This document shows positions 29,548-39,112 of a DNA stretch of 64,000 nt, piece after piece. This stretch comes from Staphylospora marina (GTDB taxonomy: Bacteria; Bacillota; Bacilli; Thermoactinomycetales; Thermoactinomycetaceae), in NCBI RefSeq assembly GCF_003856495.1, contig NZ_CP034118.1, positions 662,001-726,000 of the forward strand, given 5' to 3'. A program made the position numbers and the translations under genes. The notes under the pieces were generated by a model. It ran no database searches, was not told the DNA's origin, and was given only the letters and a program-made list of their open reading frames with translations. Numbering within the stretch: the first letter of the stretch is position 1; every line of letters begins with the position of its first letter.

Positions 29548-30354
29548 ATGGCAGTTTTCAAGGCACTCACGATCGCCGGCTCGGACAGCGGAGGCGGCGC
29601 GGGAATTCAGGCCGACCTGAAAACGTTTCAGGAGCTGGAGGCTTTCGGCATGTCGGCCATCACGGCGATCACGGCTCAAAACACCCTCGGCGTGCAGGGA
29701 GTGTGGCCCCTCCCGGTGGAAGCGGTTGTCCGGCAAATCGACTCGGTGGCGGAAGACCTGAGCCCGGATGCGGTCAAGACAGGCATGTTGTTCTCGGCGG
29801 AAATCATTGACGCGGTGGCCGAACGGATTCGCGGATACGGCTGGAAGCAGTTGGTCGTCGATCCGGTGATGGTGGCGAAGGGAGGGGCTCCGCTCCTGCA
29901 CCCCGATGCGGTCCAGGCCGTGATTCGCTCCCTGATTCCGCTGGCCGCCGTGGTGACTCCCAACATTCCCGAGGCCGAAGTTCTGACCGGGATGACCATC
30001 CGATCTCTCGATGACCGGAAGGAAGCGGCCAAACGGATCGTCTCGTTCGGGGCAAAGGCGGTGGTGGTGAAAGGAGGACACGGAGAAGAAGAAACGGTGA
30101 TCGATCTTCTGTATGACGGATCCGTGTTTGTGGAATTCCATCATCCGCGGGTCAACACCAGACACACCCACGGAACGGGCTGCACGTTCGCCGCGGCCGT
30201 CACCGCCGGGCTGGCCAGGGGAAGCAACCTGACGGATGCCGTGGATCTGGCCGAGTCCTACATCCGCTCGGCCATTGAGGATGAATTGGGCATCGGCGGA
30301 GGTCATGGTCCGACCAATCACTGGGCATACCGGCGCAGGAAAGGAGCTTCCTGA
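29548..30354 (+). CDS. thiD: Hydroxymethylpyrimidine/phosphomethylpyrimidine kinase ThiD
   Basis: A 268-residue ribokinase-fold kinase that phosphorylates HMP twice. It starts with the diagnostic AGSDSGGGAGIQADLKTFQ (residues 11-29), contains LVVDPVMVAKGG, and ends with HTHGTGCTFAAAV, which carries the catalytic Asp-equivalent Cys typical of ThiD. ATG 29548 follows GGAGGCGAC. It overlaps thiE by one base (TGATG). Confidence 0.96.
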   Translation: MAVFKALTIAGSDSGGGAGIQADLKTFQELEAFGMSAITAITAQNTLGVQGVWPLPVEAVVRQIDSVAEDLSPDAVKTGMLFSAEIIDAVAERIRGYGWKQLVVDPVMVAKGGAPLLHPDAVQAVIRSLIPLAAVVTPNIPEAEVLTGMTIRSLDDRKEAAKRIVSFGAKAVVVKGGHGEEETVIDLLYDGSVFVEFHHPRVNTRHTHGTGCTFAAAVTAGLARGSNLTDAVDLAESYIRSAIEDELGIGGGHGPTNHWAYRRRKGAS

Positions 30355-31004
30355 TGAAAGATGCGCTTCGGGACCGGCTGAGACTCTACTTCGTCGCGGG
30401 CAGCGTGAACGTGCGCAAAGATCCCGGCCGCGTGTTGGAAGCCGCCATCCGGGGAGGCATCACGATGTTCCAGTTTCGCGAAAAAGGCGAAAATGCGCTG
30501 GTTGACGGAGACAAACGGCGTCTGGCACTGGAATTGAAAGAGATTTGCCGTCGCTGCAAAATTCCGTTCATCGTCAACGACGACGTGGAACTGGCCCTGG
30601 AGGTGGACGCGGACGGTGTTCACGTGGGACAGGAAGATCTCCCGGCGGAAGAGGTGAGGAAACGGATCGGGGACAAGATTCTCGGTGTTTCCGCCCATGA
30701 CGCGGAGGAAGCTCTGCAGGCCGTTCGGGCCGGAGCCGATTATCTCGGCGTGGGTCCGATGCATGGGACGCTGACCAAACGGGACATCCGGCCGGTTCGG
30801 GGGCCGGTGGTGATTGAGGAGATTCGGCGGGCAGGTGTTCGTCTGCCGATGGTCGGGATCGGCGGAATCGGCCCGGGAAGGGTCGAGGACGTGATGAAGC
30901 GAGGAGCGGACGGGATTGCCGTCATTTCCGCGGTGGCCGGCGCCGAAGATCCGAAGATGGCCGCGCGATGGCTTCGGGCGGAAGTGGACCGTTTTGTCCG
31001 ATGA
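30354..31004 (+). CDS. thiE: Thiamine phosphate synthase ThiE
   Basis: A 216-residue TIM barrel that joins HMP-PP and thiazole phosphate. Full ThiE motifs are present: GGITMFQFREKGE (pyrophosphate/pyrimidine site), CKIPFIVNDDVELA, DGVHVGQEDLP and the YLGVGPMHGTLTKRD loop, followed by PMVGIGGIGPG. This separates it from the shorter TenI earlier in the operon. Last gene of the riboswitch operon, followed by a double hairpin. Confidence 0.96.
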   Translation: MKDALRDRLRLYFVAGSVNVRKDPGRVLEAAIRGGITMFQFREKGENALVDGDKRRLALELKEICRRCKIPFIVNDDVELALEVDADGVHVGQEDLPAEEVRKRIGDKILGVSAHDAEEALQAVRAGADYLGVGPMHGTLTKRDIRPVRGPVVIEEIRRAGVRLPMVGIGGIGPGRVEDVMKRGADGIAVISAVAGAEDPKMAARWLRAEVDRFVR

Positions 31005-36927: not shown

Positions 36928-37109
36928 GACGAACTCACCTCCGGCCTGATGGATTCGTTCCGGCCTGTCCGATACAAGAAAGAGGCGTGGCAGGAAAGGG
37001 CACAGGCCTGTATGCGTCTATCATCCTATCATATCGGGAAGGGGCGGACAATGAGAGCGGAAGCGGAGAATCCACCGGAATCCGACGGTTTTTTTCGCCC
37101 GTATCAAGC

Positions 37110-37150
37110 AAAAGCGCAGCTTGCTCCGTTTTTGGGCAAACTGCGCTTTT
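37110..37150 (-). terminator. Terminator after the TPR regulator/peptide genes
   Basis: AAAAGCGCAG pairs with CTGCGCTTTT, with a second inner TTGC/GCAA pairing. On the minus strand it lies 22 bases after the stop codon of the 17-codon peptide gene, so peptide and regulator end in one transcript. Confidence 0.75.
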
Positions 37151-37172
37151 CGGCATGTACGAAATATTCTGT

Positions 37173-37226
37173 CTATTCACCGCGCAATTCCGGCGGCTTG
37201 TCAGTGTAGAGCACGATGAGCTTCAT
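37173..37226 (-). CDS. 17-residue peptide overlapping the TPR regulator (candidate signal peptide)
   Basis: On the minus strand an ATG at 37226 lies five bases after a full GAAGGAGGTGA Shine-Dalgarno sequence. It opens 17 codons, MKLIVLYTDKPPELRGE, then TAG. The first 26 bases overlap the end of the TPR regulator frame, in a different frame, and a terminator follows. A perfect ribosome binding site inside the end of a coding region has no reason to exist unless a second product is made. Position and size fit a cognate peptide of an RRNPP-type regulator; there is a short hydrophobic head (LIVLY) but no classical secretion signal. Function is inference. Confidence 0.55.
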   Translation of the reverse strand: MKLIVLYTDKPPELRGE

Positions 37227-38541
37227 CTTCTTCACCTCCTTCAATCAGTTGGACATGGAGCCGGAAGAATCGTTCCTTGTACTTTTCCGACGTCTTGGGA
37301 TCATCCTTTTCGCAACAACGGGCCAGTTTGACAAGGATTTTTTGCTCCTGCTCCTTGAGGCGATGTTTTTCGGCGATCGAGAGCGCTTGCCGGTAGCATT
37401 GCATCGCCTTGTCCGTCTGGTCTTGTCTGACGTGACAATCTCCCAGAAAAATCAGAGCTTCGCAATGCCGGAAGTCATTTCGGGTTTTTTTCCCCAGTTG
37501 GACCGCTTTGGCCAGGATTTTTTCCGCGTCGCCGGTCTGACCGGTCTTCAGGTACAGCAGACCCAGCTTGGTGTGGGTGGAGACGAGCAGATGTTTCCGG
37601 GTGATCTTTTTCTCCAATTTGAGTGCCATGAGGAAACAACGCTCCGCTTTGGCAAGATCCCCGATCCCCAGGCAAGCTTCTCCCAACGTGGTCCACAGTT
37701 CGAACGACCGGTCCACGTTTCCGTACAGGCGGGACCATTCCAGGGCCTCCATGCAGATCCTCGCGGCATTTTCATACAATCCGTGCTTGATCATCAGGCA
37801 AGCCCGAACTTCATACATGGTCAGGTGGATGTCGGGAACCCGGATGCTTTCGAATTCCTGCCACAGTTCGTCCAGATAATTGAGAGCCTCCTCGTTGCGA
37901 TCCATCTTCTCCAGATAGATGATTTGACCGATTTTCAGGTAGTGAACGATGTGGGGCATGTCCCCGTCCGGAAGAAAACAGTCCAGTCCCTTTTCCACAT
38001 AGAGGAGTGCCTGTTCCAAATTGTTGAGATAGTAGCTGCATCTGGACAGTTCGTAACAGGCCGCCGCCTTCAGATTGGAAGATTCCGCTTCCGGGATCTG
38101 GGGGCTCAGGCTGATCACCTTGTGCAGGTGATTTTGTGCCTTCAGCCATTGCCTTTTCCGGGAATAGCACAGCCCTTTGAGGAAATAGGTGTATGCCTGC
38201 ACCCAAGGTTGGTCGGTCTTGGAGGTCAGGGAACGGAGACTCTCGAGCGCCTGATCGGGTCCGACCAGGTCGATGTCGTGCTCGATGGCGAGCAGCGTCA
38301 ATTTCGTGTCCGCTTTCCGGCACTTTTCCTCCTGGGCCTGGCAGGAGAGTTCGGTCAGATCCAGCCGGAGCTTCCGGCATATCTCTTTCAATACGATCTC
38401 ACTGACCATTTCTCCTTTTTCTGCCTTGCGAATTGTGTGAAGTTTGATCACGTCGTCCACCAGGTCGCTTTGTCTCAGCCCCAGTTCTTTCCGCTTGCTT
38501 TTGATGACTTTCCCCGCATGTTCGTAATCGAGCTGGAGCAA
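37201..38541 (-). CDS. HTH-TPR transcriptional regulator (RRNPP-like)
   Basis: A 446-residue protein. Residues about 8-70 are an XRE-type helix-turn-helix (HAGKVIKSKRKELGLRQSDL...TIRKAEKGEMVSEIVLKEI). The rest is a solenoid of TPR-like helical repeats, clearest at 285-420 (for example YLKTGQTGDAEKILAKAVQLG, YRQALSIAEKHRLKEQEQKI). This is the layout of peptide-binding regulators such as NprR and PlcR. TTG 38541 is chosen because it sits five bases after GGGAGGTGG and trims 54 unlikely residues. A tiny ORF with a perfect ribosome binding site overlaps its 3' end, and a palindrome-rich region separates it from the divergent gene at 38813. Confidence 0.82.
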   Translation of the reverse strand: MLQLDYEHAGKVIKSKRKELGLRQSDLVDDVIKLHTIRKAEKGEMVSEIVLKEICRKLRLDLTELSCQAQEEKCRKADTKLTLLAIEHDIDLVGPDQALESLRSLTSKTDQPWVQAYTYFLKGLCYSRKRQWLKAQNHLHKVISLSPQIPEAESSNLKAAACYELSRCSYYLNNLEQALLYVEKGLDCFLPDGDMPHIVHYLKIGQIIYLEKMDRNEEALNYLDELWQEFESIRVPDIHLTMYEVRACLMIKHGLYENAARICMEALEWSRLYGNVDRSFELWTTLGEACLGIGDLAKAERCFLMALKLEKKITRKHLLVSTHTKLGLLYLKTGQTGDAEKILAKAVQLGKKTRNDFRHCEALIFLGDCHVRQDQTDKAMQCYRQALSIAEKHRLKEQEQKILVKLARCCEKDDPKTSEKYKERFFRLHVQLIEGGEEDEAHRALH

Positions 38542-38597
38542 ATCTTCCACCTCCCGAAAAAAAAGATTTGTGGTTTGATTTTTTCGTTTTTGGTTCA

Positions 38598-38742
38598 AAT
38601 TCGGTGCATGTATGCGAGCATCGGATGCATTTGTGCGCGAGAAAAACGGGTTCTCCTGACTTTTTTGCCAACTTTTGCGGGGATTCCTTCCGTCCGTATG
38701 CATTTTTGCGAATTTGCATGCAAATGTCCGTGGGACTAAACT
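38598..38742. promoter_or_regulatory. Divergent control region with palindrome and repeated 13-mers
   Basis: The region between the TPR regulator and the 38813 gene holds a perfect 14-bp palindrome ATTTGCATGCAAAT (38712-38725). It also holds two copies of ATGCATTTkTGCG (38625-38637, 38698-38710) and a related ATGTATGCGAG (38608-38618). The palindrome overlaps the -35 of a rightward promoter TTGCAT-17 bp-TAAACT (38714-38742). These are plausible binding sites of the divergent HTH regulator. Confidence 0.5.
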
Positions 38743-38812: not shown

Positions 38813-39112
38813 GTGCTGAAAGTTCAGGTGGAAGGCGAGATGAGGAAAGTGGAACCGTTTGTCAGGGAGTTGGCCCGTCGTCCTCACGTGGAAGTGGCAT
38901 CCGAAGAGGTCCGGGTGATCCGGGAAATGGAGCCGGACATGGTACGGGTCCGGTTCCGGTTGCAGCATCAGCCGCAACGCCGTGTGAAAGTGGTGAGCCT
39001 CTTTGACGGAAACGGCCGGGAAATCCGGATTCCCCTCATGGATGTGATCAGCGTCCGGATGGATGACGGCCGCCACATCGTGACAGGTCGTTCGTTTGAC
39101 ATCTTTGCTTGA
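38813..39112 (+). CDS. Unknown 99-aa protein, DUF3970-like N-terminus
   Basis: A GTG at 38813 follows CAGGAGGGAATGAAG and opens 99 codons. The N-terminal MLKVQVEGEMRKVEPFVREL recalls the small DUF3970 (KVRISG-type) fold. The C-terminal half is beta-rich (RRVKVVSLFDGNGREIRIPL) and not assigned. There is no membrane segment. It is transcribed divergently from the TPR regulator, across a shared palindrome, so it may be a regulated target. Function unknown. Confidence 0.6.
   Translation: MLKVQVEGEMRKVEPFVRELARRPHVEVASEEVRVIREMEPDMVRVRFRLQHQPQRRVKVVSLFDGNGREIRIPLMDVISVRMDDGRHIVTGRSFDIFA

Follow-up and report, generated by a model that had tools for sequence, protein, structure and literature searches.

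Can one bacterial gene supply both a transcriptional regulator and the peptide that this regulator recognizes? The question is raised by a locus in the window, that is, the entire 64-kb stretch of Staphylospora marina DNA analysed here, in which a sequence-only reading had noticed a regulator gene with tetratricopeptide repeats (TPR) overlapped by a 17-codon ORF and had proposed that the two form a receptor-peptide pair of the RRNPP type. The answer that we consider probable is that the locus is a three-part peptide-signalling module, in which a leaderless peptide would serve as the ligand of an NprR-like receptor. The features on which the argument turns are the following.

37110..37150, minus strand: hairpin with a U-rich 3' side, a probable terminator (from folding; absent from the pattern-scan list)
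37173..37226, minus strand: leaderless peptide ORF MKLIVLYTDKPPELRGE, 17 aa, in a different frame from the receptor (similar ORFs in each of the five nearest orthologues)
37232..37241, minus strand: perfect Shine-Dalgarno (SD) sequence AAGGAGGTGA inside the receptor 3' end (sequence)
37201..38541, minus strand: probable HTH-TPR receptor/regulator, 446 aa, TTG start (Pfam TPR; predicted fold of a homologue like NprR/Rap)
38622..38637, plus strand: imperfect 16-nt repeat, copy 1, containing ATGCATTT (repeat search)
38695..38710, plus strand: imperfect 16-nt repeat, copy 2, 88% alike to copy 1 (repeat search)
38712..38725, no strand: 14-bp perfect palindrome ATTTGCATGCAAAT, a candidate operator that aligns with TGCAAAT of the orthologues (alignment)
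38813..39112, plus strand: divergent gene for a 99-aa protein ending GRSFDIFA, the third part of the module (profile, upstream of the receptor)

The sequences themselves show the second ribosome binding site, the conserved short ORF, a C-terminal motif that also occurs in Sec-type propeptides and the linkage to the divergent gene. We infer translation of the peptide, its binding as a ligand, control of the promoter together with the direction of that control, and either export or self-sensing, in the following form. Translation of the receptor mRNA would yield an HTH-TPR regulator resembling NprR and also, from another strong ribosome binding site within the last receptor codons, a short peptide without a leader. 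This peptide, either whole or as a processed end that contains (D/E)PP, would bind the receptor and alter its action at the shared promoter region; in this way the receptor would control the divergent gene of ~100 aa and, probably, the operon in which it is itself encoded.

The window locus and its nearest orthologues

The TTG at 38541, preceded by GGGAGGTG, is the fitting start of the regulator, the frame of which stops at 37201 on the minus strand, and this start position is common to the window regulator and all five nearest orthologues, where it is preceded by GGAGGTGA. Together with a strong TPR match (TPR_2, E=7.1e-23 in Pfam, the longer open frame being scanned), this bears out the 446-residue TPR protein that had been read from the letters, a size within the range of ~250-500 aa that goes with a TPR domain in RRNPP(A) receptors. 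In the same Pfam scan of the longer frame HTH_3 was matched at E=0.0041 (17.6 bits, the curated cut-off being 23), and the receptor-family profile matches the HTH chain C.BclI at 9.7e-11. A tblastn search of plasmid and phage records with the receptor gave no match at 1e-10.

Five bases past AAGGAGGTGA, an ATG at 37226 opens the peptide frame, the stop of which ends at 37173; the start lies 26 nt ahead of the end of the regulator stop codon and in a different frame, so that the ribosome binding site, the ATG and the 17 codons are all where they had been seen. Elsewhere in the window, AAGGAGGTGA stands 4-13 nt 5' of a start codon at one other site only (7945/7948). The locus thus has the adjacent small peptide gene with a ribosome binding site that belongs to RRNPP(A) systems. 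Folding supports the terminator placed after the peptide: on the minus strand, 37096-37180 forms a structure of -34.5 kcal/mol (z = -5.15) with its main stem at 37150-37110, though the pattern scan did not list one.

In all five nearest orthologues, which share 51-53% identity with the window regulator, an SD-led short ORF ending GEPPxx sits at or just past the regulator 3' end: MKHLVDGEPPAC; MKRLFGGEPPAV plus MTFLFDGEPPAV (its SD weakly placed); MTRLFGEPPAV plus MTRLFGGEPPAV; and MKLRGHGEPPQA in two Laceyella genomes. These ORFs start at -4, +38, +73 or +126 relative to the receptor stop, and because the positions differ, the GEPP motif is not explicable by the regulator frame; the ribosome binding site, the ATG and the peptide are conserved in 5/5 orthologues beyond what the overlapping frame demands. 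As for the YTDKPPE-like residues expected to be conserved, the PP with an acidic residue before it is, whereas YTDKPPE as such is not. The six members of the well-supported window clade (support 100) are all of the leaderless, out-of-frame type; the window genus is represented among the searched genomes by the own genome alone. In one locus, L011, the overlapping SD seems decayed, and two peptide copies lie downstream of it, the second separated from its SD by 15 nt.

The window peptide is a less typical member of its family. It has DKPP and a C-terminal extension, with K at the position where 79 of the 81 leaderless peptides found at the listed receptor loci (see below) have D or E, and it belongs to the 12 of 76 distinct peptides without a Pro fourth from the C-terminus; because of DKPP and the extended C-terminus, we are slightly less confident of its putative ligand role than of the family's. 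Judged from 12-residue mean hydropathy, the best value of which is 0.33, the 17-aa peptide has no hydrophobic core and none of the Sec/PptAB-type export signals that mark RRNPP(A) peptides.

The divergent promoter region had been said to carry a 14-bp palindrome and repeated 13-mers that could be sites of the regulator. The palindrome is perfect, and the repeats are present but not identical (85% alike). A pattern scan found no sigma-70-like promoter and hence lends no support to the promoter proposed at 38714. TGCAAAT is common to all six aligned intergenic regions (the window and its orthologues), whereas the half-site counts in these regions were reached by 11, 59, 3, 67, 1 and 1 of 500 shuffles, so that the shuffles are clearly beaten in some regions only. 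There is, then, modest support for candidate operator sites of the regulator in the intergenic region.

Leaderless peptides across the receptor family

The window receptor was used to search 61 genomes, 45 of which contain matches, one of them at least 27. The 152 receptor loci counted below are the matches listed for the window receptor, seven from the own genome (L008 on a 45-kb contig included, a 62-aa hit excluded) and 145 from relatives; named records place relatives in Thermoactinomyces, Laceyella, Thermoflavimicrobium, Shimazuella, Paenactinomyces, Lihuaxuella and other genera. Outside the 152 stand L001 (the DNA copy of the query), L009 (the 62-aa hit, E 0.19), L155-L166 (repeats of loci already counted) and L187-L217 (named records, for the most part of the same genes).

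Under a fixed rule (SD of at least 5 nt, ORF of 7-40 aa, [DENK]PP within the last 14 residues), 69 of the 152 receptor genes have a 3'-end ORF, compared with 1/152 on the reverse strand, 1/152 in the gene interior and 0-2/152 in ten dinucleotide shuffles. The contrast between 69 conserved SD-led ORFs and these controls supports the proposed receptor-peptide pair. A wider rule, which also allows DPT out of frame, finds 81 leaderless (D/E)PP-type peptides, 7-34 aa long, at 72 of the 152 receptors. All four proline codons are seen at both prolines (78 peptides). In 42 of the 81 peptides K or R stands five places ahead of the acidic residue, a possible processing site; separately, the ORFs of L042, L058, L066, L080, L093 and L097 hold two or three motif copies each (e.g. 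MKRFESDPPKPSKVLESDPPKPLESDPPKNI), which implies maturation by cutting. Behind eight of the 72 receptors (L012, L020, L023, L057, L060, L078, L083 and L136) there is more than one leaderless peptide ORF.

Conservation was also compared in 40 receptor pairs that are 55-99.5% identical: the last nine peptide codons are more alike than the 45 nt past the stop in 35 pairs, less alike in three (in L005/L049, 0.15 vs 0.29) and equally so in two, which counts as no more than supporting evidence because the pairs overlap and both members were selected by the motif. Among pairs below 60% identity, peptide similarity follows receptor similarity weakly (r = 0.19), a value as high being reached in 0/999 permutations.

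For 43 of the 152 listed receptors, an internal ribosome binding site precedes a peptide that is read in the same frame as the receptor itself. When 44 receptors were picked by protein alone ([DEN]PP in the last 10 residues) and the best in-frame start in the last 40 codons was taken, an internal SD of at least 5 nt was present in 43 tails and one of at least 6 nt in 38; 23 of those 43 have a 7-nt spacing. In the gene bodies of the same receptors, 0/293 in-frame ATGs have an SD of at least 6 nt; in codons 7-40 from the end, such an ATG occurs in 35/94 genes outside the Sec group described below vs 0/57 within it. The SD is kept though the residues that it encodes vary with codon phase (GGE, EEV, ERR), so that the nucleotides themselves appear to be under selection. 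The own genome has both forms, L003 in frame (MRYIADPPTD) and L005 out of frame (MNHRYLNDPPPGQVFR); at the receptor 3' ends of L004, L006 and L007 no peptide was found.

These numbers bear on the alternative of an ordinary regulator gene with an ORF at its end by chance. The imperfect fit of the window peptide to the family motif would be in keeping with chance; for the family, chance is contradicted by the fixed-rule controls, the bare gene bodies and Sec-group genes, and the comparable ORFs in every one of the five nearest orthologues, and we regard this explanation as very improbable. Could the active form instead be the in-frame C-terminal tail, so that each receptor carries its own tethered ligand and free peptide competes with it? 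That the ligand motif ends 43 receptors would suit this idea. However, the two forms interchange on the tree (the in-frame state requires 15 changes, at least 10 of them forced by well-supported branches), an indication that selection acts on the free peptide; moreover, the window receptor has no such tail, the internal SD and start, which are kept, would be superfluous for a tail alone, and in the model of the in-frame homologue L191 the tail is unstructured. We consider a tethered ligand unlikely.

Whether such a peptide would leave the cell and, as in RRNPP(A) systems, be re-imported by an oligopeptide permease is a separate matter. The 12-residue mean hydropathy is at most 0.94 in the 76 distinct leaderless peptides (median best -0.42), vs a minimum of 1.82 in 29 Sec-type peptides of related receptors, themselves selected for hydrophobicity; with 0/76 above 0.94, the earlier suggestion that the peptide possibly acts without a classical export signal fits. 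The peptide might accordingly be a strictly intracellular co-factor, a timer or a means of self-sensing that is never exported, the ligand step being the same as in the module proposed here. The lack of any hydrophobic leader-like stretch in the 76 peptides speaks for it, as does the production of ligand and receptor from one message, in 43 receptors even from one frame. Against it, the leaderless peptides of the RopB clan are described as intercellular signals (PMC10518010), and the many paralogues with differing peptides in one genome look like separate channels, both of which bear on export here indirectly. We consider the intracellular variant a serious possibility, albeit one that we would not bet on.

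Two receptor groups and the divergent gene

In a tree of 151 receptors, one branch (support 100, 57 rows) forms the Sec group, with Sec-type propeptides in 29 cases, none found in 28 and leaderless peptides in 0; the remaining 94 receptors (93 tree rows plus L114, 329 aa and not in the tree) comprise 72 with leaderless peptides, 21 with none found and one with a Sec-type peptide. L008 is in neither group. Since the counted genes are related, such group contrasts represent far fewer independent events, and the hydropathy rule behind the four rows labelled OUT+SEC or IN+SEC is a loose one, the 'SEC' ORF of L037 and L065 looking spurious. Within the leaderless group, two well-supported clades have no peptide found, one (L004, L039, L041, L046, L047, L061) with the divergent gene in 4/6 and the other (L082, L092, L101, L143, L154) with it in 0/5.

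No motif was used in selecting the Sec-type peptides, the criteria being length, SD and hydropathy. A Pro nevertheless stands fourth from the C-terminus in 27 of 29 (SEPGGL, GDPIHT, SNPGSG), as it does in 64 of the 76 distinct leaderless peptides, and D or E precedes this position in 16/29 and 59/76, respectively. The same placement in both classes suggests that the ligand probably corresponds to the peptide's C-terminal end, and the two classes seem to have a common ligand core. In RRNPP(A) systems the mature ligand is likewise this end and binds the TPR groove, a point for which the common motif is indirect evidence here.

This shared motif also bears on the hypothesis that the short ORF is a device of translation control, (D/E)PP-X stalling ribosomes in an EF-P-dependent manner and tuning receptor or mRNA levels, with the peptide having no target. 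D, G, E and N after PP form strong stalling contexts, and one of the four follows PP in 57 of the 81 leaderless peptides; diproline as such is a known stalling motif (PMC6544042, PMC4176338). Stalling does not, however, predict that Sec-type homologues, with a hydrophobic leader and usually a single Pro, would keep this Pro at the same C-terminal distance, and the extra peptide copies behind 8/72 receptors fit ligand genes better. We thus deem stalling quite improbable as the explanation.

The leaderless group is further set apart by the divergent gene, which profile searches place upstream of 70/94 leaderless-group vs 0/57 Sec-group receptors, always in divergent orientation; it was sought up to 1 kb upstream within a flank of mostly ~800 nt, and some of the 24 absences may be missed cases. 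The family occurs in 22/23 searched genomes of Thermoactinomycetaceae and 0/19 from the rest of the order. Both contrasts may reflect few evolutionary events, the rows being related; Sec-group receptors inside Thermoactinomycetaceae also go without the gene. In the own genome, all four divergent genes adjoin leaderless-group receptors. Looking in reverse from 20 divergent-family genes, we found a receptor adjoining 15 (one a contig-end fragment and one a short remnant) and none at five, with seven of the 20 places overlapping loci already counted; a (D/E)PP peptide is present at 8 of the 13 usable receptor 3' ends and absent from five.

What the divergent protein does is hardly indicated by its relatives. 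The window protein has no match at E<=1 in Pfam, NCBIfam or PHROGs; 7/22 family relatives (1/12 in another set) weakly resemble DUF3970 in Pfam (best E 0.0043), and matches in PHROGs are scattered and weak. The predicted structure is poor (pLDDT 66), Foldseek with this model gave nothing better than E 0.23, and the family profile gave nothing better than E 0.18 against the PDB. A bolder hypothesis would hold that Thermoactinomycetaceae harbour a Sec-free RRNPP branch in which a single gene gives rise, through internal initiation, to both receptor and ligand, and in which the divergent protein of ~100 aa, rather than being mere output, has taken over the export, maturation or stabilisation of the leaderless ligand; we find this doubtful, if attractive. 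The entire module, divergent gene, receptor and in-frame MFTLSSQANPTKIYVSDPPGT, also occurs on a contig of a viral collection (L217, IMGVR_UViG_2693429913_000004, 944-2970), at the contig end, so that a prophage origin is unsure.

Receptor fold and relation to known systems

The model of L191 (pLDDT 88, its in-frame tail at 440-459 not placed, with pLDDT under 50) aligns to RRNPP structures over residues 73-440, with Z 27.6 for apo NprR, 26.7 for NprR with NprX and 27.2 for Rap with CSF (range 26.7-27.8). Unrelated TPR superhelices fit equally well, APPBP2 coming top (Z 28.1) and LGN and APC/C chains scoring 24-26, and Foldseek ranked LGN/Pins first. Because unrelated TPR proteins thus reach Z 24-28, the modelled fold supports kinship of the receptor with RRNPP regulators and does not prove it. 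No chain named Rgg/RopB is among the best 60 profile matches or the best 50 fold rows listed, nor is one named PlcR among those 50 fold rows.

One of the closest known counterparts is NprR-NprX. NprR combines an HTH with a TPR domain, the fold of which is matched over nearly its whole length by the homologue model, whereas Rap, to our knowledge, lacks a DNA-binding HTH. The NprX gene lies at the 3' end of its receptor gene, and the ligand, SKPDIVG, contains a KP as well; yet NprX is an exported propeptide, whereas the family described here has no hydrophobic leader and often encodes the peptide in the receptor's own frame. The peptides of the RopB clan are also very short and leaderless, next to a TPR regulator and led by a strong SD (PMC10518010). 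They are, however, described as mostly 8-10 aa, highly hydrophobic and located beside Rgg/RopB relatives of six other families (PMC10518010), as opposed to the hydrophilic (D/E)PP peptides of 7-34 aa beside NprR-like receptors of Thermoactinomycetaceae, which, at the hydropathies given above, lack the richness in aliphatic and aromatic residues of that clan. The Alo systems of Paenibacillus also comprise many paralogous receptor-peptide pairs per genome, with AloP of 32-50 aa carrying a predicted N-terminal signal sequence (PMC7425212), and Rap-Phr and tandem pheromone propeptides (PMC11343458) offer peptide genes beside the receptor and duplicated peptides, but as secreted propeptides. With neither an export signal nor RopB-type hydrophobicity, the leaderless pairs rank as a probable variant of RRNPP-like signalling, distinct from the RopB-clan peptides, rather than as a standard RRNPP pair.

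The RopB-clan survey is described as a scan of just 20 bp ahead of the receptor stop (PMC10518010), a limit outside of which most in-frame ligands of the present family would fall. Another survey is described as covering ORFs of 20-120 aa that carry an export signal and lie no further upstream than the final 50 bases of the receptor (PMC9765709); the signal-sequence requirement would miss leaderless ligands, the in-frame ones above all. Some out-of-frame ligands might have been picked up by RRNPP_detector in its 'loose' mode; in the accessible text on this tool Thermoactinomycetaceae are named once, for four biosynthetic clusters (PMC10075063). Titles and the starts of abstracts yielded no report of leaderless or in-frame ligands in this family, and the RRNPP_detector candidate lists may include some. 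The dozens of related regulators with leaderless peptides suggest a little-known style of bacterial signalling, in a field, the origin and export of leaderless signal peptides, for which the published class that we found is the RopB clan (PMC10518010, as far as its accessible text goes). Since Sec-type and leaderless groups occur in one receptor family with one C-terminal motif, the change between them is traceable on a tree, and a single protein family, that of the divergent ~100-aa gene, marks its leaderless side. The own genome also includes a distant paralogue, L008 (contig C2, 45 kb, 29682-30932), with a Sec-type propeptide, MRKTLAFLIASILIFSSS...MSDPKCC, that lies over the receptor stop.
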